Source of the DNA: Nitrospira sp. UW-LDO-01
GTDB taxonomy: Bacteria; Nitrospirota; Nitrospiria; Nitrospirales; Nitrospiraceae
Direction of reading: 5' to 3'
DNA length: 34,182 nucleotides
Assembly (NCBI GenBank): GCA_002254365.1
Contig: NIUT01000048.1
Coordinates: 40,888-75,069 of the forward strand
Each line of letters starts with the position of its first letter. Positions within the stretch are counted from its first letter, which is position 1. The position numbers were made by a program, and so were the translations under genes. The notes beneath the pieces are model-generated. The model was not told the origin of the DNA and ran no database searches. It worked only from the letters and a program-made list of their open reading frames with translations. Shown one piece after another: positions 10,432 through 34,182 of this stretch.

Positions 10432-11670
10432 ATGAAGAATATTTTCACCATGGTCTTAGCCGGAGGAAAAGGTGAGCGACTCAATCCCCTTACGGCGCAA
10501 CGGGCCAAACCCGCGGTGCCATTCGGCGGGAAATACCGCATCATCGACTTTACACTCAGTAACTGTTTGAACTCAGGGCTTCGCAAGATCGCCGTCCTCA
10601 TCCAATATAAATCCCATTCGCTAGACCGTCATATTCGAGCGGGCTGGAACATTCTCAGCGCCGACCTCGACGAATACATCGCTTCGGTTCCTCCCCAGCA
10701 GCGCATCAGCGAAGATTGGTACCGCGGCACAGCCGACGCGGTCTATCAGAACATGTTCTTGATCGATGATGAACACCCTGAGTTCCTGCTGATTCTCGCA
10801 GGTGACCACATCTACAAGATGAACTACGCGGAGATGTATCACTGGCTCATCGCCACGAGCGCGGACGCGGTCGTGGGAGCCATCGACATCCCCATCCAAG
10901 AAGCCTCTCGCTTCGGCGTCATCGCCGTGAACGAAGACTACCGGATTACCCGATTCGATGAAAAACCGGCGCATCCCATTTCGCTGCCCAACGATCCGGA
11001 CCATGCCTTTGCCTCGATGGGGATCTATCTCTTCCGCACCAAGGCGATCCGGGAATACCTACTGGCCGATGCGAAAGAAGGCAGCGCGCACGACTTCGGG
11101 AAAAACATCATCCCGAAAATGATCGCGGAGAAACGGGTGTATGCCTTCAAATTTCAAGATGCGAACAAGAAAGCGGTCAAGTATTGGCGTGATATCGGAA
11201 CGCTTGATGCCTACTGGGAAGCGAATATGGATTTGGTCTCCGTGGACCCGCAGTTCAATTTCTACGATGCTGAGTGGCCGATCCGAACCTATCAGGGACA
11301 GTTTCCTCCGGCTAAGTTCGTCTTCGCCCAGGATTTTCAGGGAGGCCGCATGGGTGTCGCGCTTGACTCGATCGTGTGCGGCGGCTGCATCATCTCGGGC
11401 GGGAGGGTCCAGAATTCCGTCCTCTCCCCGAACGTGCACGTGCACGACCATGCCGATATCCGTGACTCTGTCGTCATGGAAAACGTCATCATCGGTGCAC
11501 AGAGTCGCATCAGACGCGCCATCATCGACAAGGATGTGACGATCCCTCCTCAGACAGAGATCGGGTACAACCGAGAGACCGACGCGCAGCGGTTTACCGT
11601 GACAGAATCGGGCCTCGTGGTCATCTCAAAAGGAATGAAGCTGCATGCCTCCGTCGATCCATCCGGTTGA
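10432..11670 (+). CDS. glgC: glucose-1-phosphate adenylyltransferase
   Basis: Makes ADP-glucose from glucose-1-phosphate and ATP, the committed step of bacterial glycogen synthesis. The 412-residue length is normal. The nucleotide-binding loop LAGGKGERL (residues 9-17) is followed by KPAVPFGGKYRIIDF, which contains the regulatory/substrate-binding lysines. GTADAVYQN, LILAGDHIYKM (catalytic Asp region) and FDEKP are also present. The C-terminal third is a left-handed beta-helix (SVLSPNVHVHDHADIRDSVV and following). I choose ATG 10432 because it gives the family N-terminus MKNIFTMVLAGG; the frame is open to 10327. Its last 26 bases overlap the next gene. No other glycogen gene is in the window. 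Confidence 0.95.
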   Translation: MKNIFTMVLAGGKGERLNPLTAQRAKPAVPFGGKYRIIDFTLSNCLNSGLRKIAVLIQYKSHSLDRHIRAGWNILSADLDEYIASVPPQQRISEDWYRGTADAVYQNMFLIDDEHPEFLLILAGDHIYKMNYAEMYHWLIATSADAVVGAIDIPIQEASRFGVIAVNEDYRITRFDEKPAHPISLPNDPDHAFASMGIYLFRTKAIREYLLADAKEGSAHDFGKNIIPKMIAEKRVYAFKFQDANKKAVKYWRDIGTLDAYWEANMDLVSVDPQFNFYDAEWPIRTYQGQFPPAKFVFAQDFQGGRMGVALDSIVCGGCIISGGRVQNSVLSPNVHVHDHADIRDSVVMENVIIGAQSRIRRAIIDKDVTIPPQTEIGYNRETDAQRFTVTESGLVVISKGMKLHASVDPSG

Positions 11671-13504: not shown

Positions 13505-13593
13505 GCCCTGTAGGACTAACTAAGGAACGAGGCTTCAGGACTGAGTGTGGCTGCGACTTTACCCTCAGCACTTAGTCCTCAGCACTTCAAAAT
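13505..13593 (+). other. spacer with inverted and direct repeats
   Basis: Between the two helicase halves, AGGACTGAGTG (13537-13547) is mirrored by CACTTAGTCCT (13569-13579) with one mismatch, and CTCAGCACTT occurs twice (from 13565 and from 13579). The hairpin lacks a T-run. It may mark an old rearrangement junction. Confidence 0.45.
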
Positions 13594-14649
13594 ATGACCA
13601 CCGACGAACTCGAACAGCTCTTAGCGCAACAACCCGTGGCAGTACTGCATCGCTTGGCCCGTGGACGTGTCCAGCGCCACTTTCGCGCCGGAAAACGCCG
13701 CCTGATCGAGCTACTGCTCCAACATTCGAGCCAAAATCGTGCCGGCTTTGAGTCCGATCTGCTGACGCTGATCGGAGAACGTCAAGCCGGACCCACATCC
13801 GGATCACCACGTCGCCACGAGGCTCCCCCGATCGCTCATAAGAAAGCCGCGATCAGGTCGTCGGAATCAGAGCCGTCTGATCCTCCCGTCTCGCTCACAG
13901 AATGGCTGCAGGGACTCGGCGTACCGGCGCCCCAACCCTTCGTCCAGGATCCCTGGCAGATTGAAGCCCTGGCAGCGGTAAGTGAAACCGATGTGGTGAT
14001 CAGCGTCCCGACCGGAAGTGGGAAGACCTATGTCGCGATTGAAGCGGCACGACGGGCTATGGAAGAAAATCGCAGCGTCATTTACACCTCGCCGCTCAAG
14101 GCCTTGTCGAACACCAAGTATGCAGAGTTTTCGAAGATCTTTGGACCGGACAAGGTCGGCATTCTCACCGGGGATCGCCAGGAAAACGGGCAGGCCCCGT
14201 TACTCGTCATGACGACGGAGATTCTCCGCAATTTGCTCTACGATGCGGCGAGTGGTGAGATCGATGTCAGATTGGACACGCTCGGTTTGGTCATCCTGGA
14301 TGAATCACAGTACCTGGCTGATCCCGAACGCGGTGTTGTGTGGGAAGAAACGATTATCTTCTGCCCCTCCCAGGCCAGACTCTTGTTACTCTCGGCCTCC
14401 ATCGGCAATCCACAAGATATCGCCGATTGGCTCACGTCGATTCGCTCAACCCCCTGTCGACTGGTGCGGCACAGCAAGCGCACCGTGCCTCTGAGAGCCG
14501 GCTATCTGCACCCCAATGGGAAACTCACTCCCTTGTTTCGCACGCTGGGTATTCCACAGGGACATCCCGGCCACCTCCATCCCGAAGCGAAACACCTCTT
14601 CATGGAATACGAAGAAGAGACCTTGCCCTCCGGACGACCAAGACGGTAG
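13594..14649 (+). CDS. Ski2-like helicase, N-terminal RecA1 half
   Basis: A 351-residue protein carrying the first half of a superfamily 2 helicase. Q-motif region FVQDPWQIEAL (~116-126), Walker A PTGSGKT (139-145), motif Ia SPLKALSNTK (166-175), DExH-box variant DESQY (236-240) and motif III SASIG (268-272) are all present. It stops after GYLHPNGKLTPLF and a charged tail (MEYEEETLPSGRPRR), exactly where the linker to RecA2 would be. The RecA2 half is the gene just upstream. The N-terminal ~90 residues are basic and lack a recognised domain. A truncated copy of the dispersed repeat begins 22 bases after the stop codon, so repeat-mediated rearrangement may have produced the split. Confidence 0.82.
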   Translation: MTTDELEQLLAQQPVAVLHRLARGRVQRHFRAGKRRLIELLLQHSSQNRAGFESDLLTLIGERQAGPTSGSPRRHEAPPIAHKKAAIRSSESEPSDPPVSLTEWLQGLGVPAPQPFVQDPWQIEALAAVSETDVVISVPTGSGKTYVAIEAARRAMEENRSVIYTSPLKALSNTKYAEFSKIFGPDKVGILTGDRQENGQAPLLVMTTEILRNLLYDAASGEIDVRLDTLGLVILDESQYLADPERGVVWEETIIFCPSQARLLLLSASIGNPQDIADWLTSIRSTPCRLVRHSKRTVPLRAGYLHPNGKLTPLFRTLGIPQGHPGHLHPEAKHLFMEYEEETLPSGRPRR

Positions 14650-16236: not shown

Positions 16237-16920
16237 CTACGCGCTCTTACGCATCTTCCGACCCCACAGCCCAAGACCCAAGAGTCCTGAACCCAGTAGA
16301 AGCATGGACGCAGGCTCCGGCACCGTGGAAATCTCCGCATCGAAGGAGCTCGACACATTATTTCCAGACAGGTGGGTAATCGTCACCACTTGTGTCACAG
16401 AAAATGGGCCGACTCCACCGCCAAGACCACCGCTCGTATTAGAAAATGCTCCAGGCCCCAAGAGTCCAGAGTTCGTCAACGGCGTGGTTGTTGCGAATGC
16501 ATTATTCCCGGCATCCCAGTAAGTCTGATATTGAACCCGGTTTGATGCAGTCCCACCGATCAACGCGAGAAAACTAAACGCGGGCGGAGTGGTAAAACCC
16601 GTCTCGGTTAGCATGAGTTGCATAGTCCCACCACCACCGTCAGAGACATTGACGCTATTCAAGTCCAGATGTGGTTGAGTTGAACTCCCAATGTTAATTC
16701 CTGTGGCGACATTAATGCGCCAGTTACTCACGGAACCAATGAATGTGATCGCATCAAGGGCCCCATTGGCATCTCCTGCGCCATTGTCGCTGAGATTAAC
16801 TTCAACAGCCCCACCTCCAGCATTCAACGAGAGCCTCAAGGCTGAAGCCTGTTGAGGAATTGCCACACTTCCTACGAGCAGAGCAAGCACTGCCACATAT
16901 ACCATTCGCTTCATATGCAT
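16237..16920 (-). CDS. PEP-CTERM protein, exosortase A substrate
   Basis: A 227-residue exported protein. It has a signal peptide (residues ~1-27: MVYVAVLALLVGSVAIPQQASA) and a Gly/Ser/Asn/Thr-rich beta-type body. The C-terminal sorting signal is textbook: VPEPASMLLLGSGLLGLGLW followed by GRKMRKSA, i.e. VPEP motif, hydrophobic helix and basic tail. XrtA, encoded ~8 kb away, is expected to cut after the PEP motif during export to the surface. The body contains no recognisable enzyme domain. The start is ATG 16920 or the third codon (also Met), behind GAAGGGGGTGA. It is transcribed alone, from a sigma-54-type promoter at 17015-17030, and closed by the hairpin at 16165-16198. Confidence 0.9.
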   Translation of the reverse strand: MHMKRMVYVAVLALLVGSVAIPQQASALRLSLNAGGGAVEVNLSDNGAGDANGALDAITFIGSVSNWRINVATGINIGSSTQPHLDLNSVNVSDGGGGTMQLMLTETGFTTPPAFSFLALIGGTASNRVQYQTYWDAGNNAFATTTPLTNSGLLGPGAFSNTSGGLGGGVGPFSVTQVVTITHLSGNNVSSSFDAEISTVPEPASMLLLGSGLLGLGLWGRKMRKSA

Positions 16921-17014: not shown

Positions 17015-17030
17015 AGCAATATACTTGCCA
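17015..17030 (-). promoter_or_regulatory. sigma-54 promoter of the PEP-CTERM gene
   Basis: Read on the minus strand the sequence is TGGCAAGTATATTGCT. It matches the RpoN consensus TGGCACnnnnnTTGCW at all key positions, with GG and GC separated by exactly 10 bases. A start of transcription near 17004 would leave an ~84-base leader before the gene. A sigma-54 activator (PrsR) is encoded in the same locus. Confidence 0.8.
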
Positions 17031-20980: not shown

Positions 20981-22369
20981 TTAAACGTTTTCCGTTTGGC
21001 CTTCGGCTTTTGTCTTCTTCAACCCATAGCGGTCCAGTAATTGATAGAGAGTGGGACGACTGATCCCCAACTCAGCAGCCGTCTTGGATACATTCCCCTC
21101 ATGCTTATCCAAGGCTAACCGAACCAGATCCTTCTCGTGACGCTGGCGAGAGGTTTTTAAGCTCAACGCTTCATCGCCTCCCATAGCCAGGCCACAGAGT
21201 CCAAGATTTCCAGGGGTGATATAAGCCCCCTCAGCCATCAAAACCGCCCGATTCATTCGATTTTCCAATTCCCTCACATTCCCGGGCCACCCATACGCCT
21301 GTAATGCCGCCACCGCCTCTGGGGAAAAACCCTTCAGCTGTTTGCGTTGCTCGGCTGCAAATCGCATCATGAATCGGCGTGCGAGTAGAGCAATGTCGGC
21401 ACCGCGTTCATTCAGCTGAGGCACCGCAATTTCGATCACGCAAAGACGATAGAACAGGTCTTCCCGAAACCGCCCCTCCTCAATGGCCTTGTGAAGGTCA
21501 GCATTGGTAGCCGCAAGGATCCGGACGTCGACGGAAATCGCATCCTTTCCACCAAGCCGCTGGACTTTATGATCCTGCAAAAACCGCAAGAGCTTGACCT
21601 GTAAGCCAAGGGGAATATCACCGATCTCATCCAAAAAGAGCGTGCCACCATCAGCATACTCAATTCGCCCTTTCTTTTGCTGAGCCGCTCCGGTAAAGGC
21701 GCCTTTTTCATAGCCGAACAGCTCGCTCTCCAGGAGGTTGTCGGGAATGGCGCCGCAGTTGATCGCCACAAAAGGCTGTTCGCGGCGCGTACTCTGGCGA
21801 TGAATCGCCTGTGCCACCAGCTCTTTGCCGGTGCCACTTTCCCCCATGATCAATACGGGCATGGCGGTTGGGCCAACCTGACGAATCGATTGAAAGACCT
21901 CCTGCATCGGCTCACTAACCCCCACAATCCCTTCAAACTCTTCCCCTTCCACCGACGCATAATGGGCGCGGCGGTCTTGCTCCACACCATAGCGATACAG
22001 CGCTCGCTGCAGCACGACCCGTAAGACATCGAGTTGAATCGGCTTCTCAATGAAATCATACGCGCCGCTTTCAATGGCCGTCACAGCATTCGTGCGGTCA
22101 CTGTTACCGGTCACGACAATGACCTTGGCTAATGGATTCAGGTTCAGAACTTCACGCAAAATAGCCAATCCTTCCGAGGCGCCATCCACATCCGGAGGCA
22201 GACCAAGATCCAATAGCACCACCGGCGGCATCGCCGATCGGATCTGCGTCACCGCGGTTGCGCGGTCCTCTGCCTGAAGCACCTGGTAGTCGGACATCAG
22301 CGCCCATTTCATCTGGTCACGAATATCAGAATCGTCATCGACAACTAAAATGGTGGAGAGTGTGCTCAT
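20981..22369 (-). CDS. prsR: PrsR, sigma-54 activator response regulator
   Basis: A 462-residue NtrC-family regulator. The receiver domain (1-120) has the acidic pocket DDD (11-13), phospho-acceptor Asp 54 (LLDLGLP) and Lys 109 (IEKP). The AAA+ domain (~147-375) has Walker A GESGTGKE (176-183), the sigma-54 contact loop GAFTGA (223-228) and Walker B FLDEIGD (245-251). A Fis-type helix-turn-helix ends the protein (GNVSKTAAELGISRPTLYQL, ~425-444). It should therefore activate RpoN-dependent promoters when phosphorylated by the neighbouring kinase. In Zoogloea the PrsK-PrsR pair with RpoN controls PEP-CTERM gene expression. The gene starts 24 bases after prsK. Confidence 0.93.
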   Translation of the reverse strand: MSTLSTILVVDDDSDIRDQMKWALMSDYQVLQAEDRATAVTQIRSAMPPVVLLDLGLPPDVDGASEGLAILREVLNLNPLAKVIVVTGNSDRTNAVTAIESGAYDFIEKPIQLDVLRVVLQRALYRYGVEQDRRAHYASVEGEEFEGIVGVSEPMQEVFQSIRQVGPTAMPVLIMGESGTGKELVAQAIHRQSTRREQPFVAINCGAIPDNLLESELFGYEKGAFTGAAQQKKGRIEYADGGTLFLDEIGDIPLGLQVKLLRFLQDHKVQRLGGKDAISVDVRILAATNADLHKAIEEGRFREDLFYRLCVIEIAVPQLNERGADIALLARRFMMRFAAEQRKQLKGFSPEAVAALQAYGWPGNVRELENRMNRAVLMAEGAYITPGNLGLCGLAMGGDEALSLKTSRQRHEKDLVRLALDKHEGNVSKTAAELGISRPTLYQLLDRYGLKKTKAEGQTENV

Positions 22370-22393: not shown

Positions 22394-24493
22394 TTATGAC
22401 GAAACAACCGATTGCCCTCGGGTATTGGAGGCCTGTGCCGCGGACAGGGATGAGAGAGGAAGTTCGATTCGCACGTTGGTTCCCTGCCCCACGGCACTCC
22501 GAATCTGAATCATGCCGCCATAGCCCTCGACGATTCGCCGACAGTGATACAACCCGATCCCAAGGCCGCCTGGCCGACTCGATTGCACCGGACGAAACAT
22601 CGATCGCAGTCTCTCCGGTGCAATACCACATCCGGTGTCTTCGACCGTCAGCACAAGAACCCTCTTGAGGTGCATGAGCGCGATTCGAATCTCTCCCTCT
22701 TCACCGACGGCTTGTTTGGCATTCAACAGGATGTTGAGCAACACTTGTTGGATCTCTTCTCGGACGATCATGATCGGTGGAACTGGTTCCATCGTGATCT
22801 GCCAGCACTGCCTCCTCTCCCCCAAGGAAGCGACGATGTCTTCAATCATCGAGAGCATATCCACCAGCTCCGGTGCGGCGGTGGTGGGTGCCTGGAATGC
22901 TTTGAGTGAGAGCTTCGACATCAGTGCTGTCATTTTCTTCGCGGTATCACTCACGGTCTTCATGGCGGACTCCTGAAACGCAGGATCCTGACCATGCAGA
23001 TCGGCGTTCTGTGCGACCAAGGACAGACGAGCCGCTAGATTCTTCAAGTCATGCAGACAGAAGGCAGAAAACCGATGCAGCGCTTCCAGCTCAGCCGAAC
23101 CCTGGCGCTCTTCCGCCAACCGTGCATGGGCCAACAACACGCCGGCATGATGTGCCATGGCCCTCAATAAATCATGATCATCCTGCCCATACGGTACCCC
23201 AGCCACATCCCCACTCAGGGCAATAAAACCGATTAGTTCTGACTCAGAACGAATCGGCACACACAAGACCGCACCGGTCGCCCTTACGAACGGATCTTCC
23301 AGCAACAATTCGACCATCTCCACAGTCAACGGCCTATCTGTCTCTGCCAGCGAGCGAATCAAACGATGAAAGACTTCTAGCGGTTCAGGCGGAGACTCGG
23401 TGTTCGTAGACCGCACCTGATGAAATCGTCCTTCAGCCTCGATTTTGTGCCAGAGCGAAATTCGGCCTGCAGAAAATGTGCGGCTCAGCAGCCCCAGCAG
23501 TCCATCCCAAATCGCATCTACGGAATCTCTGCCCCGAAACACTTCCGTGACTTCCAGCCACTGCGCCCGGTAATCATACTTCGACCGGTAAAAATTGCGC
23601 GTCACAGTGGTCCGCAACGCTGTCCGTGTACTGCGAGACAGCACCAGTATCGCCAATGCTATCAAGGCCAACAACACAAAGAGCACGCTCAAGGCGACTC
23701 CGAACGATACCCCCACGGAGCGGACAACTTGACTGACGACACCAACTCCAAACAAATACAGTCCTACCACCAGAAATGTCAGTGACCCGGACAGCACTTT
23801 CGGCGAGATATAGATCCGTTCCGTAAAAGACTGAAACCTCGCTCGCATGAATCCATAGGCCATGAGGCCCACCACCATAAGAATGGCAAGCCCATGTGTG
23901 GCAGCATCAAGCCGCTGTCCCTGCGGAAAGACTGTTTGGCTCAATGCAAAAATCCGGAATCCGGCCAACGCAACCAACCCAACCAGCACAAACTTCAGTT
24001 GATAGAGGAAGGGGTCTTTCAACGTGCGTAGAAGCCCTTCCATGTAGGCAATGCTCACGACATACATGATGATGAGGAACAGGTAGGTGATGTTTCCACT
24101 CAGCCCCACTTCATTCCCGAGCCTGTCCCTCGATGCATCGACATCCAACATAGCCACGACAACCCACATGCCCAAACCAATAGACGCAGCGGTTGAGAGG
24201 TATTGCAGCCAGCGAATGCGCGTTACATCTTCGTCCAGCTCCTGCTCGAACGCGGTCGCCGCATGAAACAACATCACCACCAGTAGCAGTTCACTGAGAA
24301 AACACAGGGCAGACCCGAGTCCCGACACTGCCTGAGGAACGCTCACCAGCCACTCGCCGACACAGACACCTGCTGCACCCAACAACACGCCGGCAACACT
24401 CCGATGAAAGCGGCTTGCCCACCCCTTGAGAACAGTGGTGAGAGTCAACGCCAAGCAGGTCGAAACCGCGAGCAGGACGATGATGTCAATCAT
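22394..24493 (-). CDS. prsK: PrsK, XrtA/PEP-CTERM sensor histidine kinase
   Basis: A 699-residue membrane kinase. The N-terminal ~290 residues hold about nine hydrophobic helices, the typical PrsK membrane region. A GAF domain follows (~325-465). The kinase core has H-box HDLKN (His 481), N-box NILLNAKQAV (Asn 591), G1 DTGCGI (619-624) and G2 GGLGIGL (642-648). It presumably senses an envelope or polymer signal and phosphorylates PrsR, the next gene downstream. The start at 24493 (MIDIIVLLAV) gives the normal N-terminus. The ~147 bases between xrtA and prsK leave room for a promoter of the kinase-regulator unit. Confidence 0.92.
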   Translation of the reverse strand: MIDIIVLLAVSTCLALTLTTVLKGWASRFHRSVAGVLLGAAGVCVGEWLVSVPQAVSGLGSALCFLSELLLVVMLFHAATAFEQELDEDVTRIRWLQYLSTAASIGLGMWVVVAMLDVDASRDRLGNEVGLSGNITYLFLIIMYVVSIAYMEGLLRTLKDPFLYQLKFVLVGLVALAGFRIFALSQTVFPQGQRLDAATHGLAILMVVGLMAYGFMRARFQSFTERIYISPKVLSGSLTFLVVGLYLFGVGVVSQVVRSVGVSFGVALSVLFVLLALIALAILVLSRSTRTALRTTVTRNFYRSKYDYRAQWLEVTEVFRGRDSVDAIWDGLLGLLSRTFSAGRISLWHKIEAEGRFHQVRSTNTESPPEPLEVFHRLIRSLAETDRPLTVEMVELLLEDPFVRATGAVLCVPIRSESELIGFIALSGDVAGVPYGQDDHDLLRAMAHHAGVLLAHARLAEERQGSAELEALHRFSAFCLHDLKNLAARLSLVAQNADLHGQDPAFQESAMKTVSDTAKKMTALMSKLSLKAFQAPTTAAPELVDMLSMIEDIVASLGERRQCWQITMEPVPPIMIVREEIQQVLLNILLNAKQAVGEEGEIRIALMHLKRVLVLTVEDTGCGIAPERLRSMFRPVQSSRPGGLGIGLYHCRRIVEGYGGMIQIRSAVGQGTNVRIELPLSSLSAAQASNTRGQSVVSS

Positions 24494-24640: not shown

Positions 24641-26293
24641 TCAGCTTGCTGGCATGAAATCAACGATCAACGGCCATGAGTCTTGAAGGAACATGCGCGC
24701 CTGCGCTTGTGCCGCCTCCACCGTCGTCGTCACAGGCACCGAAATCCGAACCAATGCGCCATCCGATCGATGCTTGGTTGCGGCATCCCAGATCAGATAC
24801 GCTTTGGCCCAGTACTCGCTGGCAATCACCCGCCCACGATCATGATACCAATACACGATCACCTGCTTATCAAGCCCTTTTTGTATCGTCACCTCGTTGA
24901 CCGTGATGGAACGATCAGCTACCGAAACAACCATCTCCGTAGACTCGACAAATTGCCATCCGGCCCCGGGAAGACAGTTCTTCGGTGAGTGATATGTAGC
25001 ACCAGTTCGTTGTGACTCATAATAACCTACATAGAGCCACACCGGCCCATTCGAAGATGAGCGATCAGCGATTACCCGGGCGACAGGTCTTGGCGTGCGC
25101 TCCGTTGATGAAACCGGTCGTGCTTCAGGTACCATGGGAGAAATCGGGACGTACACCCGCATGATGTATTCAGACAGTCGGAGAACCTTCAAGACCTCTT
25201 CCTCTAAACCCAATTCTGTTCCAGCCCAACGCTCGGCGATGGTGAGTGGGAAGTTCTGAAGGGACTGCTTTGTGGGAATGCGTTCTCCTTGAGATACTGA
25301 CTGCACAGCAAGGAGAGCACAGCACAGGAAGCCCATCGCAATCCCGATCGGTTTCTTCTGAAGGGCAAACGGCTGTGGGCGTGAAACAGTAGGCGTATTG
25401 TGTTGGCCTGCGCCAACCTGATCTCGGCCTAACTTCGAGAGTACGAAACCTCCCAGGAGAAGAAACAGAAACGCCACCAGAAAGATCAACCAGCCCTCAA
25501 AGGTATGATAAAACCCTTGAGCAGCTTCAGGTCCCCAGTAGTGGGCCAAGACCCCTGTGCCACTCACTCGCACCGCATTCGCCGCAATCGCGATGGGAAC
25601 AGAGAGCGTCACCAAGACCCACCGTTTCCACAGCATGGTCTGGGAAAAGTAAGCAAACACTGTCCCTAAGGCTACTAACGCCTGCAGAGAACGAATTCCG
25701 CTGCAGGCCTCCGCGACTTCAAGTCTCGTGCTGGCCAACACGATGACGTTCCCCTCCCGCAACACGGGAATTCCGAACGTATCGAGACAATACGTAGCCG
25801 TCTTGGCAGCAAATACCTGTAACGGGAAGGCGATAGCATTCACCACGATGGCAGGAAGAGGGATCATGAACAGCATGAACCCGATTGGAAACACGAGAAC
25901 TTTGAGCGCTTCACGCCCGAGAATCAGAAGCACTCCGCCAGCAAGGACAATCAGCAGCGACACACGTTGCATGTACAACTCGGCTCCGAGAAGGCCGACC
26001 AGCAAAATACTTAGTCCAAGCCCGATCAGAGGCATGCCGAAACGATCGAGCTGAGGTGGGCAGGCAAGAAGATGCTGACGTCGTTCCCAGATAAAGTAGG
26101 CCACAATGAATGGAATCAAGAATCCATGCGAATAGTCCGGGTCATCATTCCACTGCACGACCATGTGATAAAGAACAGGATAGTACAGTATCGCCAGCAA
26201 GCCCACGAGGCCGACCAGCAAACTTCCGGTCACCATGGCATCGGACCCGATGGGCTCTCTCATCGGTTGAGAGAGATGATCTGCTTCTTTCAT
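24641..26293 (-). CDS. xrtA: exosortase A fused to EpsI domain
   Basis: A 550-residue protein with two parts. Residues ~20-290 form the polytopic exosortase, with the transpeptidase-like residues Cys 197 (EACSGIRS), Arg 242 (NAVRVSG) and His 263 (FYHTFEG) all present; it should cleave PEP-CTERM proteins in the membrane. Residues ~315-550 form an EpsI-like periplasmic domain (NFPLTIAERW, LYVGYYESQRTGATYHSPKNCLPG in two parts, GWQFVES), which in other bacteria is a separate or fused partner in exopolysaccharide production. Between YIMRVYV and LYVGYYES there is an insert of ~35 Pro/Arg/Ser-rich residues (about 383-417) that I do not expect in EpsI. The gene lies 27 bases after the glycosyltransferase stop codon. 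Confidence 0.93.
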   Translation of the reverse strand: MKEADHLSQPMREPIGSDAMVTGSLLVGLVGLLAILYYPVLYHMVVQWNDDPDYSHGFLIPFIVAYFIWERRQHLLACPPQLDRFGMPLIGLGLSILLVGLLGAELYMQRVSLLIVLAGGVLLILGREALKVLVFPIGFMLFMIPLPAIVVNAIAFPLQVFAAKTATYCLDTFGIPVLREGNVIVLASTRLEVAEACSGIRSLQALVALGTVFAYFSQTMLWKRWVLVTLSVPIAIAANAVRVSGTGVLAHYWGPEAAQGFYHTFEGWLIFLVAFLFLLLGGFVLSKLGRDQVGAGQHNTPTVSRPQPFALQKKPIGIAMGFLCCALLAVQSVSQGERIPTKQSLQNFPLTIAERWAGTELGLEEEVLKVLRLSEYIMRVYVPISPMVPEARPVSSTERTPRPVARVIADRSSSNGPVWLYVGYYESQRTGATYHSPKNCLPGAGWQFVESTEMVVSVADRSITVNEVTIQKGLDKQVIVYWYHDRGRVIASEYWAKAYLIWDAATKHRSDGALVRISVPVTTTVEAAQAQARMFLQDSWPLIVDFMPAS

Positions 26294-26320: not shown

Positions 26321-27496
26321 CTACCGCCCCCGGCTCTTAGAGGGCGTGGAACTGTTCAACCCGTCGACCAATTCTGAGATGTACTGAACCTTAGAAACCC
26401 ACGTTTCATCGGCTACGGCATCCAGAAAGACCCGGGAGTCCAACCCCTGACGAATTCCGACCGCCTCGTCCAATGCGGCAGTAAACTCCGTAGCCGTCGA
26501 ACCAAACCGCACCACATGCTGGTACGCTCTCGCCTCTCGCAACGGCGTGGAGACGACCGGAAGCCCGGCGGCCAAGTATTCACGTAGCTTGATAGGATTC
26601 ACATTGTCCGTTAGCCGATTAATCCTGAACGGCATGATGCCGACCGTAAACCCCTTTGCAAATGCCGGTAATGTGTCATACGACCGAACACCCAAGAGGT
26701 GCACATTGGGTACCTGCTCGAGCACACTGCAATCGACGCCGCTCTTTCCGATCAGCACAAAAGACCACCGCGGTCGCTTCGCCGCAACCTCTGCGATCAG
26801 TTCGAGATCGATCCACTCATGAATCAGTCCCCAAAACCCGATCACAGGATGCGGCAGTGTTGCAACCTCTCTCGGAACAGCGGTATCAGAGGAAGTGGCT
26901 TTCCCAAAATGCTCGCTATCAACTCCATGGGATACCAGATAGGTCTTGGGGTGAAGGGCTCGCTTACTCTCGTAGAGTGTTTCTGCCGATGTGATAACGA
27001 GATCACTCTGTCGAATCACCTCAGCTTCCATGTCTGCCATCAGCTTCGCATTGAGGAAGCTGAAGGCAGACCACTCGTCCACACAATAATAAATAACTTT
27101 TTGGGGCCGTAAGTGGGCAATCACCGAAGCCATCGTCGGCATAAACGTCCAGACTTGAAAGTCACTCATCCCTAAGCGGGTGGCCTGATATCGTATATAC
27201 CGAGCGAGAAACCACGCATTAAACGTCGGAACTCCCTTGATGTCGTGAAAGGGAATCACCAGAGGAGTCACGACATGTAAATTAGGCATGACACTCACAG
27301 GCCCTTGCATGAACTTCTTGAGCTTTTGCAGCATTCTCGATGCATCTCCCGCAGATGCCCCTGGCCGCCGCAATCCGATAGAATTCACCCACAGAACACG
27401 ATTGCTTCTCGCAAGAATCTTCATGACCTGGTGTTTGCTGGTCGGGTCCGCATCCCAATCATTTGCAAAACAGATAATATTCTGCCCATGCATCAT
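26321..27496 (-). CDS. GT-B glycosyltransferase of the XrtA locus
   Basis: About 391 residues. The ATG at 27496 overlaps the stop codon of the upstream amidotransferase gene as ATGA and has GGAG seven bases upstream; the frame is open to 27523. The protein has the two-domain GT-B layout: an N-terminal Rossmann part (IICFANDWDADPTSKHQVM, YYCVDEWSAFSF) and a C-terminal donor-binding part with GFWGLIHEWIDLELI and PIKLREYLAAGLPVVSTPLR. It is a cytoplasmic enzyme that should add a sugar to the lipid-linked repeat of the XrtA-associated exopolysaccharide. The sugar cannot be read from the sequence. Confidence 0.83.
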   Translation of the reverse strand: MMHGQNIICFANDWDADPTSKHQVMKILARSNRVLWVNSIGLRRPGASAGDASRMLQKLKKFMQGPVSVMPNLHVVTPLVIPFHDIKGVPTFNAWFLARYIRYQATRLGMSDFQVWTFMPTMASVIAHLRPQKVIYYCVDEWSAFSFLNAKLMADMEAEVIRQSDLVITSAETLYESKRALHPKTYLVSHGVDSEHFGKATSSDTAVPREVATLPHPVIGFWGLIHEWIDLELIAEVAAKRPRWSFVLIGKSGVDCSVLEQVPNVHLLGVRSYDTLPAFAKGFTVGIMPFRINRLTDNVNPIKLREYLAAGLPVVSTPLREARAYQHVVRFGSTATEFTAALDEAVGIRQGLDSRVFLDAVADETWVSKVQYISELVDGLNSSTPSKSRGR

Positions 27497-29367
27497 GTCC
27501 GTACTCCAAATCGTTGAAACCAATACTCCAAGACCAACAACCCCCAGAGTTCATTCGAGAAATCAACGCCACCTACTTTATGCCGTTGTAAAAGAGAGGC
27601 TATTTCGGCTCTGTGAAGATAGTCAACGATGCGGCTGTTCCGTCCCAGCAATACATCATGCGCCACGTCATATAACCCTCCTCGAAACCAATCAGCCACA
27701 GGAACAGGAAACCCCTTCTTCGGACGATGCACAATTTCACGCGGCAGATACGGCTCGACAACTTGCTTCAGCAAGTACTTGGTTATTCGGCCTTTGATCT
27801 TATAATCGGTGGGAAGCCCTGCGGCAAATTCCACGAGCCGGTGATCAAGAAACGGCACCCGCAACTCGACGGATGCAGCCATCGTCATCTTATCTGCCTT
27901 AATTAACAGATCATCCGGCAGCCACGTCTTCGAATCGATGTAGAGCATTTGATTGAGTGGATCGCAATCCTGCACACGGGCGAAACATGATGAGAGAGTG
28001 TGGGAGAGATAGTTGTACCCTCCCTCAGAGGCTCCCCACTCTGGTCTGATCAACATGTGCCGCATACCTTCGAGAAAATGCCCGGAGACACCACGATAGG
28101 CCTGCGAAAGTGGTTTCCCAAAGAGGCGACAATACCGAGATAGTTTCCCCCCTCCACCGACAATCTCTCCAAGCCGACTGAGCAAAGTGGATACAGACGC
28201 AGGCGTCAACGCTCGCGTCCGTGCCATGGTGAGCATCTTGTGATAGATTGAGTACCCTCCAAAAATCTCGTCCGCCCCTTCCCCTGATTCAAGAACTGTG
28301 GCACGCGGCTTGGCATACCGCGCCAAGAAATACAATGGTATACAAGCTGCATCTCCTACAGGCTCATCAAGATGCCACACGAGCTGAGGAATCCATTCAG
28401 CAAAGTCTTGAGCCGATAGGCGCAACTCATGATGCTCAGATCCCGTAACCCGACTGACGAGCCCAGCATAGTCGAATTCATTCACATCTGCAGCCTGCTC
28501 ATACCCAACGGTAAATGTCCGAACCGGATCCTTCAGGATGCGATGCAGCACAGCCACAACAGTACTGGAATCAATCCCGCCGCTAAGAAACACACCATAC
28601 GGCACTTCACTCATCAAATGATCTTGACAGACTTCAAAGAGTAGTTTTTCCAACTCTGCTTTGAGCTGGGACTCATCTCGAGGTTCCGGATGGAAAGCAA
28701 GATCCCAATATTGTCGGACCGCCCACCCCCCCTCGTCCACCACCAGGGTATGTCCCGGCAATAGTTTGAAGATCCCCCGAAATAGCGTCTTCTCTCCCGG
28801 CACATACCGTAAACTCAGATACGCATCGAGTGCGTCGTAATCCACCTGACGTTCTATCCCCTTAATGGTGAGCAGCGCCTTGATCTCTGAAGCAAACACC
28901 AGCTGATCGCCAACGATGGCATAGTAGAGTGGCTTAATCCCGAGTCTGTCTCTGGACAACACCAATCGTTTCCGCACTCGATCCCAAATGGCAAAGGCAA
29001 ACATGCCAGTGAGCTGAGACTCAAACTCATCTCCAAATTCTTCATAGGCATGTAGGATAGATTCCGTATCGGAATGTGTCCGATACCGATGGCCGGCGAC
29101 CTCCAATCGACTCCGTAGTTGAGCGTGATTGTAAATCTCTCCGTTGAAGACGATTGCGAGGCGATCGTCTTCGTTAAACATGGGTTGATGCCCTTGACTG
29201 ACATCAATAATGCTCAACCGTCGATGCGCCAACCCCACGGGTCCGTCAATAAAAAACCCCTCATCATCAGGCCCCCGATGCACAATGGTATTCGCCATCG
29301 CGTGAAGCTGCTCCTGTCGAACAGTCCCCGCTCTGTTTAGATGTACAATTCCCGCGATTCCACACAT
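27493..29367 (-). CDS. asnB: XrtA-associated asparagine synthase-like amidotransferase
   Basis: A 624-residue class II glutamine amidotransferase of the type found in XrtA loci (exosortase A system-associated amidotransferase 1, TIGR03108). Cys 2 (MCGIAGIVHL) is the N-terminal nucleophile after Met removal; glutaminase residues lie in HRRLSIID, FNGEIYN and SDTE. The synthetase half has the ATP PP-loop SGGIDSST (262-269). It probably amidates a sugar acid or an amino-acid substituent of the polymer rather than making free asparagine; that is inference from context. In Zoogloea an asnB gene of this kind is needed for floc formation. It starts three bases after the epimerase gene and is coupled to the glycosyltransferase by a 4-base overlap. 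Confidence 0.9.
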   Translation of the reverse strand: MCGIAGIVHLNRAGTVRQEQLHAMANTIVHRGPDDEGFFIDGPVGLAHRRLSIIDVSQGHQPMFNEDDRLAIVFNGEIYNHAQLRSRLEVAGHRYRTHSDTESILHAYEEFGDEFESQLTGMFAFAIWDRVRKRLVLSRDRLGIKPLYYAIVGDQLVFASEIKALLTIKGIERQVDYDALDAYLSLRYVPGEKTLFRGIFKLLPGHTLVVDEGGWAVRQYWDLAFHPEPRDESQLKAELEKLLFEVCQDHLMSEVPYGVFLSGGIDSSTVVAVLHRILKDPVRTFTVGYEQAADVNEFDYAGLVSRVTGSEHHELRLSAQDFAEWIPQLVWHLDEPVGDAACIPLYFLARYAKPRATVLESGEGADEIFGGYSIYHKMLTMARTRALTPASVSTLLSRLGEIVGGGGKLSRYCRLFGKPLSQAYRGVSGHFLEGMRHMLIRPEWGASEGGYNYLSHTLSSCFARVQDCDPLNQMLYIDSKTWLPDDLLIKADKMTMAASVELRVPFLDHRLVEFAAGLPTDYKIKGRITKYLLKQVVEPYLPREIVHRPKKGFPVPVADWFRGGLYDVAHDVLLGRNSRIVDYLHRAEIASLLQRHKVGGVDFSNELWGLLVLEYWFQRFGVRT

Positions 29368-29370
29368 GGA

Positions 29371-30366
29371 CTAGTTCCTCGGAAGGCGAAGTCGCGCCAG
29401 ATTCTTGGTGAGCAGAAAAGCACTATAAATTTCGGCCTGGTCGAGCCAGGATCGCTTCGGTGGAAGCCATCGGTGCGCACGGACCACCAGCTCCTCATCA
29501 CCTACCAACGTCCCAACCAACTCGAGCAAACACGCATTCAATTGATGATAATGAGGCGGACAAAGATACCCATGCGTCCCATACCAGCTCCACTTCCCGC
29601 GATAGTCCCACATACCAAGGGCCTCGCGCAGACCGCACACGCCATCCGCAAAGAGACCATGAATCTGTGGCGCGCCCGTTTCGACCGCCAAATCGTACAG
29701 CCCTAACAAGCTGAATAAGAACCCATCTAAGACCCGAGGAAGTGGATACACTGGATACTCCTCGTACAGCGCGCCGCGCCCCATCACAGTACGTACTCCT
29801 CCATCTTCAATCGAGAGGGAAAATACTTTTGTGGCCTTGAGACACAGGTCGATCAACTCGGAATCCTTCTTCAAGCGATAGGCCCGCACAAGCGCGCTGA
29901 TCACGACGCTTTGATACATCGCGGAGATCCAGGGGGACTTTAGTCGCGCGGCTCCTTCTTGCCAATCAAAGGCACAGGGCCAGACAACCGCCTCATCCTG
30001 TCGTCGCAGGGCATGCAATCGCAGCCACTCGATTTGCACCCAGAAATCCTTTAACGCGTCCGAGTCCCCGGTGGCATGAAAGACCCCTAGCCGATGCAAC
30101 CCCCACCACGCAATAAACAGAGGATTGTATTGTGGACCCTGTGCTCGATACACTTTCTGCACCACGCCTTGCGCATCGAAGCGCATATCGTCTAAAAAGA
30201 GAACATCGCTGACAATGTAGTACTCCAGTGCCCCTGCACACGCCGCGTGCACGCGCGCCTGTAACGGAAACGAGAAGGTGAATCCGACCGCTTCGCGCTT
30301 CAGCGCGCGTAACGCATGCTGAAGTTGAGACACTGTCCGTTTCCCACTCATCGTGTTACCTAACAT
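29371..30366 (-). CDS. D-glucuronyl C5-epimerase-like protein
   Basis: A 331-residue protein without a signal peptide. Its second half matches the conserved C-terminal domain of glucuronyl C5-epimerases: a repeated alpha-toroid pattern with NPLFIAWWGLHRLG (~81-94), YPLPRVLDGFLFSLLGLYDL (207-226), a WSWYG block (259-263) and PPHYHQLNACLLE (270-282). Such enzymes invert C5 of glucuronate in a polymer (as in heparan or other uronans). Here it would act on a uronic acid in the XrtA exopolysaccharide, but the substrate is inferred, and animal-type enzymes act outside the cytoplasm while this one shows no export signal. It is the first gene of the minus-strand array, three bases before asnB. The start is 30366 or the Met at codon 6. 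Confidence 0.75.
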   Translation of the reverse strand: MLGNTMSGKRTVSQLQHALRALKREAVGFTFSFPLQARVHAACAGALEYYIVSDVLFLDDMRFDAQGVVQKVYRAQGPQYNPLFIAWWGLHRLGVFHATGDSDALKDFWVQIEWLRLHALRRQDEAVVWPCAFDWQEGAARLKSPWISAMYQSVVISALVRAYRLKKDSELIDLCLKATKVFSLSIEDGGVRTVMGRGALYEEYPVYPLPRVLDGFLFSLLGLYDLAVETGAPQIHGLFADGVCGLREALGMWDYRGKWSWYGTHGYLCPPHYHQLNACLLELVGTLVGDEELVVRAHRWLPPKRSWLDQAEIYSAFLLTKNLARLRLPRN

Positions 30367-30695
30367 GTTCTCCGCATTGCCAGGTGCACAAATAGATCAT
30401 GGCGACAGATGCCATGCAGTGCGTAATCATCGTCTTAACGCCTTGGATAAATGTGAACGACGTTGTTGCGTCTGGCGTTCACAACAAGCTACGGTGCTCA
30501 CACCACTTTCGTGATTTGGAGCAGTTGGGGGTGGTTTTTCTCAACTGCAGAACTAGTCGGGTGGCACGCCTATTGCGTGCCTTGAAGGAAAGTCTATGCC
30601 ACCGGAAGCATCAACGGATAGTCCCTTGACAAGATTGATACAGCGTTTCGATTAGGAGAATTCATCCCACTGGGCAGATAACCTGGAGAGCTACG
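30367..30695. promoter_or_regulatory. divergent control region with inverted repeats
   Basis: No gene is seen. Besides the plus-strand sigma-54 promoter at 30562-30577, it contains GTGAACG (30453-30459) with CGTTCAC (30476-30482), and GCAGTTG (30521-30527) with CAACTGC (30542-30548), both perfect 7 bp inverted repeats upstream of that promoter. They are candidate activator sites. No sigma-54 element for the minus-strand array was found. Confidence 0.45.
30562..30577 (+). promoter_or_regulatory. sigma-54 promoter of the beta-helix gene
   Basis: TGGCACGCCTATTGCG matches TGGCACnnnnnTTGC exactly, with 10 bases between GG and GC. Transcription would start near 30588, leaving a leader of about 108 bases. 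The element is itself partly palindromic (GGCACGC/GCGTGCC), which is a by-product or could aid binding of another factor. Confidence 0.82.
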
Positions 30696-32363
30696 ATGAT
30701 CCATCTCACGCGATTCAATCACCATGCGATTTCAGTTGGACTGTGCCTCTTAATGGGGTGGCCAGTCCTGGCCCTCAGTCAGACGCTTCCTCAGCTGCCA
30801 GTGATCCCGGATATTAGCTGCGGGACTTCGTCCGGTAAGACAACGATGGTTCCCAGCGGAGGCAAACTACAAGCGGCAATCGATGCCGCTTCTCCTGGAG
30901 ATAGAATCCTGCTTGAGGCCGGTGCGACATTCGTCGGTCCCATTACCCTGAAAGTGAAACCAGGCACCGGCTGTATCACCATCCGCACCTCGGCCCCAGA
31001 CTCTGCCCTGCCACCGACTGGCGAGCGCATCTCTCCGGCCTATGCCAACGTGATGGCGAAAATTGTGTCACCAGGATTGAATCAGCACGCGATTAAAACC
31101 GAATATGGTGCGCATCACTATCGACTGCTGGGCCTCGAAGTCACAAAGCAGAACAACGACGCATTTGTCTCCCAGCTGATTGAGCTGGGTGACGGGCTAA
31201 TGACCGAGCTCTCACAAGTCCCACACCACATTGAGCTGGACAGAATGTACGTCCACGGGTTGCCGACATCGGCGCTCAAGTTTTGCATACTGCTAAACAG
31301 CGCTTCCTCCACAGTCAAGAACTCGTACATCGCCGATTGCAAGGAACGTGGTTTCGACTCCCAAGCCATTGGAGGCTGGACCGGCCCTGGTCCGTTTGTG
31401 ATTCTCAACAACTATCTGGAGGGAGCGGGAGAAAATGTCATGTTTGGTGGAGCGGATCCACGCATTCCGAATCTCGTTCCATCGGACATCGAGATCCGCA
31501 AGAACCTCTTCACGAAGCCGTTACGGTGGAAAATTGGAGACGCATCCTATGCAGGAATCCCATGGCAAATCAAGAATCTGTTCGAACTGAAGAATGCTCG
31601 CCGGGTTTTGATTGATGGGAATATCTTCGAATATAGCTGGGTACACGCTCAGGTTGGCTACGGCATTATGATCACCGTTCGCAACCAGAGTAACCGAGCA
31701 CCCTGGTCCGTGACTGAGGACATCACCTTCACAAACAATATTGTGAAGCATACGGCTAATGGCTTCGCCCTCTCTGGCCTTGACAGCAACTATCCCAGTC
31801 AACCCACCAAGCGTGTGTTGATCAAGAACAATCTCTTTCTGGATATCGGCAATCCACAATGGGGTGGCGGCGGTCGGTTGTTTCAGATTTCTAACGGTCC
31901 CTCGGATGTCACGATCGAACACAATACCGGATTTCAGACAGGTCAAATACTCTACGCGGCGGGGAGTATACCGAGTCTAAACTTTATCTTCCGCGACAAC
32001 ATCGCGCCTCACAACGCCTATGGGGTTTTCGGTGACGGAGCAGGCGTCGGTCTAACCACGCTGAACAAGTACTTCCCAGAGTTCAAGTTCAGCACGAATG
32101 TCCTGATCTCGAATCCATTTCCCAAGAATTATCCATCGGACAATTTCAACCCGGCGGGAGTTGCTGCCGTCGGATTTACAAACGTTGCGACTGGCAACTA
32201 CAGCCTCAACCCGACCAGCCCTTATTCCCAAAAAGGTACCGATAATACCGACATCGGCATTAATTGGTCACTGCTGCAAGCAGCACTTCATATAGAGACA
32301 GGCCCCATCTCATCTCGCTCCGATAGCCATTTAGCCGCCCCAGCTCTAACCATCGGTCCCTAG
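30696..32363 (+). CDS. secreted right-handed beta-helix protein
   Basis: A 555-residue exported protein with a signal peptide (VGLCLLMGWPVLALS). A typical beta-helix opening follows (KLQAAIDAASPGDRILLEAGATFVG) and then many short repeats with stacked Asn and hydrophobic residues (HHIELDRMYVHG, FVILNNYLEGAGENVMFGG, SDIEIRKNLF, RRVLIDGNIFE, VLIKNNLFLDIG, VTIEHNTGF). This fold is used by polysaccharide lyases, epimerases and hydrolases, but I cannot point to a catalytic set. Its paralogue lies convergent downstream. A sigma-54 promoter upstream suggests PrsR control along with the PEP-CTERM gene. A role in modifying or remodelling the extracellular polymer is inference. No PEP-CTERM signal is present at its C-terminus. 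Confidence 0.8.
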   Translation: MIHLTRFNHHAISVGLCLLMGWPVLALSQTLPQLPVIPDISCGTSSGKTTMVPSGGKLQAAIDAASPGDRILLEAGATFVGPITLKVKPGTGCITIRTSAPDSALPPTGERISPAYANVMAKIVSPGLNQHAIKTEYGAHHYRLLGLEVTKQNNDAFVSQLIELGDGLMTELSQVPHHIELDRMYVHGLPTSALKFCILLNSASSTVKNSYIADCKERGFDSQAIGGWTGPGPFVILNNYLEGAGENVMFGGADPRIPNLVPSDIEIRKNLFTKPLRWKIGDASYAGIPWQIKNLFELKNARRVLIDGNIFEYSWVHAQVGYGIMITVRNQSNRAPWSVTEDITFTNNIVKHTANGFALSGLDSNYPSQPTKRVLIKNNLFLDIGNPQWGGGGRLFQISNGPSDVTIEHNTGFQTGQILYAAGSIPSLNFIFRDNIAPHNAYGVFGDGAGVGLTTLNKYFPEFKFSTNVLISNPFPKNYPSDNFNPAGVAAVGFTNVATGNYSLNPTSPYSQKGTDNTDIGINWSLLQAALHIETGPISSRSDSHLAAPALTIGP

Positions 32364-32430
32364 TCGGAAATGAGAACGAACCATGGAAGATCACCCAACC
32401 TGCCTTACGCACACATACTTCACGACAACA

Positions 32431-32454
32431 CCCTCGGCGTGCAGATGCCGAGGG
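32431..32454. terminator. possible bidirectional hairpin
   Basis: A perfect 8 bp stem CCCTCGGC/GCCGAGGG with an eight-base loop lies between the two convergent beta-helix genes. No run of T follows on either strand, so its action as an intrinsic terminator is uncertain. Confidence 0.4.
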
Positions 32455-32503
32455 ATCGACAGGGTCGTTGCGTCATCGCCGAGCCGTGTTACGCATGCTA
32501 GGG

Positions 32504-34182
32504 CTATAACCCATGAACCGCGACATATTCGACATAGTCAACACCAAGGTCCTTGCCATCTGATCCCGCAGCTTTAAATGGGCTGGCACTTGTTAGCCGG
32601 TACATACCGGACGAATAATTTTCATAGCCGATGGCTGCTTCACTCACAGGAAAGGCATTCTCTGCACTCCATCCTGGAAGAATTCCTACCGTACAACCAG
32701 CAGGAGTTGGCCATGGGCCAGCGATCGCATTATGGGTCCATTGAAAGCCAGGGGTATACGTGACAAGTGCTGTACTGGAACAACCCCCAATGAAGCCAAA
32801 CAAGGGATACTTTCGAGCGGGCAGAATATTGTTCTGAAAGACAAACCCTGATGACGTTGACGGCGAACCAGCTTGCAGATCCAATCCCTTTCCATCAAGA
32901 TTGGTTGCATTGTACTTCACAACCGTATTGTGAGTGATGGTCACATCACCAGGCCCATTGGCCATGGCAAAGGCAATGCCTGTTCCTGGATAGCCTCCAA
33001 GCCCTTCCAGGATGTTGTTCCGAATAGTAAACCGTCTTCCCGCACGAGTCGCGTACGTATAGGGCCCACCAGGATCACGGCCGGAAATGGCGACGCCGTT
33101 GGAAGCAGCCTTCACCTTATTATTCCGGATCGTGACGTCTTGGACGATCGTCCAGGGAGCACAACCCGGGGAACCGGCCGGACCACACTTTGCACCGACT
33201 CCCGAACCTTGTCTCGGAGTGAGCATGAACGCAAAACCCGCCTGCGCATCAGGCCACACACCCTCAAACGTGTTGCCCTCAACCAACACCCGTTGAGCGT
33301 GCTTCAGCTCGAGCAGGTTCTTCACACTCAAGAATGCAAATTCGAGATTCTTCCAACGGAGTGGCTTTGTGATTGTGTTCTTGACAATCGTGATATCCGA
33401 GGGTGTGAGATTCGGCACAAGCGGGTCAGCCCCTCCTATAAGAATGTTAATCGAAGAGCCTTCAATATAATTGTCCTCAATCCGTAATGGGCCTGCAGCT
33501 CCCCAACTCGCTATGGCGTTTGCCTCAGAGTAGTTGTGCTTGATGTCCGAGATCCATGAGTCAATGACCGCCTGATGTCGCCCCTGCAGGATCACGCCAA
33601 ACCGAACATCTTGCCCGGCAAGTGATGGGCCATGAACATACACGCGATCAAAAACAATATGGTGAGGCTGGTCATCCACAGTTGTTTCAAATCGCCCGCA
33701 ATGAATAAGGGCGCCGGAAGAATGGCCAGTAGCACCGTTACCTGGATTGCGGAACTCCAAGCCGATAAGGCGATAGTTGTGTGCATTCGGCTCACAGGTC
33801 ATCCCATACGTTCCAGTTCGTTCAAGCTTCGGGAGTTTTGGTGCATCACTGACGGTCAGACGTTCGCCTGGCGGAGCGAACTGACTATCCGGCGTACTCG
33901 TTCGAATAACGATCCAGCCCGCCCCCGCCTTATTGCGAAGAATGAAACCCTTATCGTCTGGAGGTGACTGATAGATTTCACCGGCTTTCAACTGTATGGT
34001 CGTACCTGGTACCGCCGCGTCAATGGCCGTCTGTAGTTGCGAATTCTTATAGGTACAGCCGGAGCTACAGACCGTGATGATAGCCGGTGCGGCGGGCATC
34101 GTCACATCAACAATTGACTGGGGAAGCACTGCGACAGCCGCAAGGGATTCGCTAGTTGGCAATCTTGTAGCGATACAAGAAA
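32504..34182 (-). CDS. right-handed beta-helix protein, 5' end outside window
   Basis: Paralogue of the protein at 30696, at least 552 residues. The frame stays open to the window edge, so the true start and any signal peptide are probably beyond it; a TTG at 34162 is the first internal start. Shared blocks with the paralogue include LQTAIDAAVPGTTIQLKAG, PHHIVFDRVYVHG, GGADPLVPNLTPSDITI, KPLRWK, LLELKHAQRVLVEGN and IRNNILEGLG. Differences include a Cys-containing insert CGPAGSPGCAPW and CSSGC near the start. It has the same beta-helix fold and equally unknown catalytic activity. It is transcribed towards its partner, ending 140 bases from it. Confidence 0.78.
   Translation of the reverse strand, partial: SCIATRLPTSESLAAVAVLPQSIVDVTMPAAPAIITVCSSGCTYKNSQLQTAIDAAVPGTTIQLKAGEIYQSPPDDKGFILRNKAGAGWIVIRTSTPDSQFAPPGERLTVSDAPKLPKLERTGTYGMTCEPNAHNYRLIGLEFRNPGNGATGHSSGALIHCGRFETTVDDQPHHIVFDRVYVHGPSLAGQDVRFGVILQGRHQAVIDSWISDIKHNYSEANAIASWGAAGPLRIEDNYIEGSSINILIGGADPLVPNLTPSDITIVKNTITKPLRWKNLEFAFLSVKNLLELKHAQRVLVEGNTFEGVWPDAQAGFAFMLTPRQGSGVGAKCGPAGSPGCAPWTIVQDVTIRNNKVKAASNGVAISGRDPGGPYTYATRAGRRFTIRNNILEGLGGYPGTGIAFAMANGPGDVTITHNTVVKYNATNLDGKGLDLQAGSPSTSSGFVFQNNILPARKYPLFGFIGGCSSTALVTYTPGFQWTHNAIAGPWPTPAGCTVGILPGWSAENAFPVSEAAIGYENYSSGMYRLTSASPFKAAGSDGKDLGVDYVEYVAVHGL

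Follow-up and report, generated by a model that had tools for sequence, protein, structure and literature searches.

A 34,182-nucleotide stretch of Nitrospira sp. UW-LDO-01 (contig NIUT01000048.1), the whole of which we call the window, ends in a convergent pair of genes for paralogous beta-helix proteins, P0001 and P0002, beside an exopolysaccharide (EPS) locus. We propose with moderate confidence that the two are exported right-handed beta-helix enzymes whose target is the EPS of that locus itself, and that they most likely work as polysaccharide lyases on a uronate polymer. Both Nitrospira and Acidobacteriota are common inhabitants of soil and water, living in flocs and biofilms of poorly known polymers. 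If the proposal is true, an enzyme cutting the native polymer would offer a direct means of releasing, sizing, and sequencing it, a matrix-remodelling step would be added to the exosortase/PrsK-PrsR regulon, and a host matrix enzyme would be linked to phage depolymerases.

The pair occupies the last part of the window:
30696..32363, + strand: P0001, first beta-helix protein (555 aa, ATG start), with a signal-peptide-like N-terminus; PF13229 Beta_helix 8.8e-7
32504..34180, − strand: P0002, convergent paralogue (558 codons, 5' end open at the contig end); Beta_helix 6.6e-6

That these are convergent paralogues of ~550 residues, as an earlier note on this DNA had it, is borne out by the open reading frame (ORF) calls and by BLASTP (37% identity over 550 columns, 2e-103), with one correction: the second gene is incomplete, being open at the contig end. 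Since the contig stops at the window end and the P0002 near-copy in locus L011 has 611 codons, P0002 is short of ~50 N-terminal residues and its listed TTG start is false. The N-terminus of P0001 carries a hydrophobic stretch resembling a signal peptide (crude scale), and a search of this Nitrospira genome found only these two copies. By sequence, the pair belongs to an unnamed beta-helix family, the Pfam match being the generic Beta_helix only and NCBIfam giving none; phmmer with P0001 alone against the PDB returned nothing specific, and no paper on the family was found in the open-access literature. A reading of the pair as exosortase substrates (PEP-CTERM proteins) was rejected because the C-termini, ...AAPALTIGP in P0001 and ...YVAAHGLLP in the near-copy of P0002, have no PEP motif, hydrophobic stretch, or basic end.

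Confident AlphaFold2 models of P0001 (predicted local distance difference test, pLDDT, 90.8; predicted template-modelling score, pTM, 0.89) and P0002 (pLDDT 87.6, pTM 0.92) are both right-handed parallel beta-helices. In VIA-align comparisons P0001 is led by AlgE6 (Z 29.2) and AlgE4 (Z 29.0), then RbmB (Z 28.2, root-mean-square deviation (rmsd) 2.8, 314 aligned, 18% identity), the alginate lyase 6kfn (Z 28.2, rmsd 2.3, 274 aligned), and the alginate epimerase/lyase 8ja4, the top five spanning Z 29.2 to 27.7, with polysaccharide lyase family 6 (PL6) structures at Z 24.6-26.7. P0002 is likewise led by AlgE6, AlgE4, and RbmB (Z 27.4, 318 aligned, rmsd 2.9), then the epimerase/lyase, with 6kfn at 24.7. 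The best Foldseek E-values for P0001 went to lacto-N-biosidases, alginate lyases, and a tailspike, and the nearest PDB chains by sequence profile were alginate lyases (7dmk 4.2e-10, 6kfn 6.8e-10, 7o79 2e-6), followed by alpha-galactosidases (6e-5) and an exopolygalacturonase (2.8e-4).

Three conserved blocks had been claimed for the middle of both paralogues, and all are present in both, though the third reads L[LF]ELK rather than LLELK:
31446..31490, + strand: block 1 of P0001, residues 251-265 GGADPRIPNLVPSDI, the turn after strand 246-250 and the start of strand 263-268
31515..31532, + strand: block 2 of P0001, residues 274-279 KPLRWK, in the loop preceding strand 296-298
31578..31610, + strand: block 3 of P0001, residues 295-305 LFELKNARRVL, holding the invariant E297 and K299, with K293 just upstream
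33392..33436, − strand: block 1 of P0002, GGADPLVPNLTPSDI
33350..33367, − strand: block 2 of P0002, KPLRWK
33284..33316, − strand: block 3 of P0002, LLELKHAQRVL

Their conservation reaches well beyond the pair. Alignment A1 holds 38 homologues (29-97% identical to P0001), mostly from whole-genome protein searches, with six rows (L011-L014) from a six-pattern search that included WQIKNLFE; its invariant residues (38/38) are L85, R183, G252, N270, W278, K293, E297, K299, N309, T411, and N435, of which G252, W278, K293, E297, and K299 belong to the blocks or their immediate surroundings. The rows of a further alignment, A2, were collected with patterns containing [FL]ELK and Nx[LI]E..EN, so that selection accounts for part of the invariance of those residues there, and A1 was therefore relied upon. 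In the P0001 model, E297 and K299 lie on or just after PB1 strand 296-298, K293 and W278 lie in the preceding loop, and G251-D254 follow PB1 strand 246-250 of the previous coil (the labels PB1 and PB2 for the helix faces were assigned in this analysis). The asparagines N270, N309, N348, N379, N410, and N435 each follow a PB2 strand and are probably structural, because their positions fit an Asn ladder. The blocks, by contrast, sit off that ladder: they make up a turn, a loop, and a strand in two adjacent coils on the PB1 side, which agrees with the earlier view that they are more specific than the generic repeat, and the PB1 side on which they lie may form an open cleft.

The neighbouring genes are those of an EPS locus:
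29371..30366, − strand: protein with C5-epim_C (D-glucuronyl C5-epimerase C-terminus; PF06662 1.4e-33)
27493..29367, − strand: asparagine-synthase-type amidotransferase (TIGR03108 578 bits, cut-off 817; TIGR01536 above cut-off)
26321..27523, − strand: glycosyltransferase, TuaH-like (below that model's cut-off)
24641..26293, − strand: exosortase with a C-terminal EpsI/DUF3485 domain
22394-24493, − strand: PrsK histidine kinase (TIGR02916 above cut-off)
20981-22369, − strand: PrsR sigma-54 response regulator (TIGR02915 above cut-off)
16237..16920, − strand: PEP-CTERM protein (C-terminus VPEPAS...RKMRKSA, read directly)

PrsT lies beyond PrsR, leftwards from the pair. The location beside an EPS locus thus stands. 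The near-copies L011, L012/L018, and L097/L098 extend past the pair on the opposite side, with genes for hexapeptide-type acetyltransferases, glycosyltransferases, a protein resembling methyltransferases, and another amidotransferase (names partly by eye), so the pair lies inside the EPS region rather than at its edge. Linkage was counted with 18 query proteins from the window and L011, of which 10 were taken as EPS markers. At least one marker was found in 13/20 family loci (18 acidobacterial, 2 Nitrospira) versus 1/20 control stretches of the same contigs (Fisher 1.4e-4), and two or more in 8 versus 0 (Fisher 3.3e-3); leaving aside the two Nitrospira loci and their controls, the first comparison becomes 11/18 versus 1/18. 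Homologues do not, then, occur mostly without an EPS locus, a prospect the earlier note had raised, although the margin is not wide: 23 of 36 acidobacterial loci, to which several genomes contribute two each, hold a marker, and 16 hold the amidotransferase.

The C5-epimerase domain follows the family within Nitrospirota. Among 59 relatives, the beta-helix family is found in six (E<=1e-10, own genome included), C5-epim_C in seven (one a weak 46-column match), and both in five (hypergeometric P 7e-6, or 2.4e-5 with the weak match, and 6e-4 within the genus, genomes being treated as independent). The two genes lie within 4 kb of each other in six genomes (G000, G011, G155, G225, G038, and G070), and C5-epim_C is present in 8/10 family-bearing Nitrospirota genomes. 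Relatives of the window's amidotransferase, which itself scores below the cut-off of TIGR03108 (XrtA/PEP-CTERM amidotransferase), recur near the beta-helix gene in the 16 acidobacterial loci counted above and may hint at an amidated sugar in the polymer.

The sigma-54 promoter ascribed to the first gene is confirmed as an exact core that recurs in near-copies:
30562..30577, + strand: sigma-54 -24/-12 site of the P0001 gene, TGGCACGCCTATTGCG, with the exact core TGGCACgcctaTTGC at 30562-30576
30453..30482, + strand: GTGAAC...GTTCAC inverted repeat preceding the sigma-54 site and retained in part in L012, whose promoter has diverged

The site recurs upstream of the first-type gene in six Nitrospirota loci. 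It is exact in the window, L011, and L097, where TGGCACGCCTATTGC stands 134 nt before the ATG, and in L012, where TGGCACATATATTGC stands 272 nt before the ATG in upstream DNA that is otherwise strongly diverged; L021 and L023 carry TGGCAT-N5-TTGC at 90 and 86 nt, with one mismatch. As background, 11/532 other genes in the loci have a site at 0-1 mismatch. The window total is no more than chance (three sites with up to one mismatch, as many in 11/100 shuffles), and the weight of the promoter evidence, which is read from sequence, lies in position and recurrence and not in site number. A sigma-54-like site, TGGCAAGTATATTGC, also lies upstream of the PEP-CTERM gene (17016-17030, − strand). Haft et al. 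(PMC1569441, in part) describe a sigma-54 motif, with an activator motif before it, upstream of proteobacterial PEP-CTERM genes, tie it to PrsK, PrsR, and PrsT, and place the motif of this PrsR/sigma-54 regulon 23-221 nt before the start, a range into which the site of the P0001 gene falls. A search for their motif 1 upstream of the P0001 gene found only GTGAAC/TTCACA half-sites resembling it; the inverted repeat is a candidate activator site.

The family is sporadic in Nitrospirota (5/295 genomes) and commoner in Acidobacteriota (31/297 genomes, E<=1e-20), and no relative of P0001 was found in plasmid records. In a quick tree of 102 members, both window paralogues fall among the nine rows of a single Nitrospirota group (SH-aLRT, an approximate likelihood-ratio support value, 97) and therefore look like an old duplication there, with L023 grouping with the P0002 type. 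Other Nitrospira carry a far more distant subfamily (L019 and L020, both in G033, and L096 in G070). In L020 the gene follows that of a small protein which looks fibronectin-like by eye and has an exact sigma-54 site before it; no EPS marker occurs in that stretch. Six acidobacterial members (L083, L084, L085, L087, L088, and L105) have, by eye, a membrane-anchor-like N-terminus in place of a simple signal, which hints that they act while bound to the cell, and most of them lie in amidotransferase-glycosyltransferase loci.

Relatives are also encoded on 89 IMG/VR contigs (80 loci kept) found with alignment A1, while an IMG/VR scan with a single sequence found none, and P0001 and one phage-contig member had no match in 50,697 GenBank phage records. 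The contigs come from uncultivated phages, mostly of soil by our guess, though some may still be bacterial. Neighbours were surveyed at 12/80 viral loci (84 proteins listed, 60 from 11 loci scanned), and the scanned proteins matched terminase, portal, tail, tail-assembly, endolysin, and head-tail families. Among 30 scanned one by one, a terminase lies near the family gene in L107 and L115 and a portal in L113, tail and tail-assembly genes precede it in L118, and L106 has a tail-fibre match; the terminase and tail matches of L116 and L122 are marginal, L119 has a protease, and L108 a helicase, while most of the others had no named match. Five viral copies (L107, L110, L113, L115, and L118) have no N-terminal hydrophobic stretch, and overall such a stretch was called in 34/80 viral ORFs versus 39/60 cellular ones, on a scale that is crude and with start codons that are uncertain. 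In the tree the viral rows are scattered among the cellular ones, and at least 6 changes are forced for the viral label.

From these observations we suggest the following mechanism. A PB1 groove would be lined by E297/K299, with K293 and W278 in the adjacent loop and E246/N247 and, mostly, R329 on neighbouring coils; a chain with uronate residues would bind there and be split by beta-elimination, the neighbouring C5-epimerase setting the uronate configuration. Through PrsK/PrsR and sigma-54 the first gene would be induced at the same time as PEP-CTERM matrix proteins, which would let the cell trim its matrix, remodel it, or release it, in the way that RbmB acts on Vibrio biofilms. Phages may reuse the fold, with no signal peptide, as depolymerases, probably to break through slime. 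The earlier suggestion of enzymes or adhesins acting on the polymer is thus supported in part, by the export signal, fold, EPS linkage, sigma-54, and C5-epimerase co-occurrence, although the fold does not separate lyase, epimerase, hydrolase, and adhesin.

By analogy, the mechanism is most likely RbmB-like, with no assignment to any named PL family. RbmB of Vibrio cholerae (PDB 9ozl/9ozd) cuts its own species' EPS, Vibrio polysaccharide (VPS), at modified guluronate (PMC11637428, in part); it is, like the pair, a secreted beta-helix, and matches both paralogues over the catalytic helix, but at 17-18% identity it was not found by sequence profile, and its phylum, regulator, and neighbours differ. 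In PsAly of Paenibacillus FPU-7 (6kfn), the active site includes the fully conserved D250 and K252, and the catalysts are proposed to be Y184 and K221 (PMC6796002, in part). D250-V-K252 resembles E297-L-K299 (an equivalence reached by counting Asn-ladder steps), whereas Tyr184/Lys221 have no assigned counterpart in P0001 and the match to P0002 is only at Z 24.7. Phage beta-helix tailspike depolymerases share the fold, and family members lie near structural genes in soil phages, several of them with no signal peptide, but the cellular members look secreted and the two queries had no GenBank phage match. The PL6 alginate lyases and chondroitinase B (BcelPL6, AlyGC) share the fold class, the Asn ladder, and an alignable N-terminal cap and are the best sequence-profile relatives (HHalign to eight PL6 proteins, which came from plasmid records and have motifs of the GEVEIISVK...LRHG type: local probability 98.7%, residues 45-217), but the Nitrospira family has no E-x-E ligands and has long loops bearing its own blocks. 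Substitution of K249, R270, or H271 abolishes or nearly abolishes BcelPL6 activity (PMC6879350, in part). Counting coils from DSSP and the Asn ladder puts K299 onto K249 and R329 onto R270, a register ambiguous by one coil, so K299 would fall on a PL6 catalytic position either way. A PsAly-like protein from L214, added to the comparison, favoured neither register. PF14592 Chondroitinas_B was not among the 17 families listed by hmmscan of 38 members (E<=1); a PF14592 search of 119 acidobacterial genomes matched nothing, controls included, and is hence uninformative on absence. Because the catalytic residues are not matched with certainty and the calcium ligands are absent, the family was not filed as PL6. 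A broader reading, which we put forward only tentatively, is that these proteins form a polysaccharide-lyase family not described before, with a distinct active-site set (K293/E297/K299 plus W278, no PL6 calcium site); the family would remodel the cell's own EPS in Nitrospirota and Acidobacteriota, be PrsR/sigma-54-controlled in Nitrospira, and have been repeatedly exchanged with soil phages as virion depolymerases against the same polymers.

Several results weigh against a lyase. First, the structural comparison that the earlier note had proposed favours uronate-polymer enzymes, but other beta-helix folds are close behind for P0001 (Sf6 tailspike 27.5, NosD 27.0, PfbA adhesin 26.1, glycoside hydrolase family 28 (GH28) ~25), and since high scores go to the folds of lyases, epimerases, hydrolases, and adhesins alike, fold alone gives no function. 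Second, most of the profile match to PL6 comes from the N-terminal cap, which is common to many beta-helix proteins. In the central region, HHalign placed K299 onto PL6 R270 in several alignments, or shifted it by a coil, and did not reproduce the Lys/Arg pair, and R329 is conserved in only 62% of A2. The PL6 E-x-E calcium ligands, which we take to sit at −5 and −7 from the catalytic Lys, have no counterpart in either register (KNLFELK before K299; GENVMFGG, with one Glu only). Third, 13/36 acidobacterial loci hold no EPS marker within the fetched stretch, and C5-epim_C was found in 0/32 acidobacterial family genomes, so the polymers there differ or are epimerised otherwise. Finally, the second paralogue has no sigma-54 site within 400 nt of its start in three near-copies, where the closest candidate has 3 mismatches.

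We consider it unlikely that the pair tunes the EPS rather than cutting it, as uronate C5-epimerases acting on the polymer (AlgG/AlgE-like), or mixed epimerase/lyases, would. The AlgE mannuronan C5-epimerases (5lw3, 2pyg) give both paralogues their highest structural Z, at 15-17% identity, and 8ja4 is close behind; however, the locus already holds a C5-epim_C protein of another family, sequence profiles favour lyases, and phage copies beside tail genes fit a depolymerase better. We give similarly little credence to beta-helix glycoside hydrolases (GH28/GH110/GH87-like, or tailspike endoglycosidases), which would act on the EPS with no uronate required. The profile matches to alpha-galactosidases and an exopolygalacturonase and the tailspike and GH28 scores (Z ~25-27.5) speak for them. 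Beta-helix hydrolases usually carry paired or clustered acids, however, and these are not seen among the invariant columns, whose charged residues are R183, K293, E297, and K299. Non-catalytic matrix-binding or adhesin proteins holding the polymer at the surface are quite improbable, for although PfbA scores Z 26.1 and hmmscan of 38 members found one relative with FG-GAP and one with InlB-type repeats, an invariant Lys/Glu set at ~30% identity exceeds the usual demands of binding and the linkage to phage structural genes fits such a role poorly.

Elsewhere in the window, two same-strand ORFs (11645-14649) look by eye like the two halves of a single helicase with their order swapped, the DEAD-domain part (13594-14649) lying downstream of the apparent C-terminal part (11645-13504).

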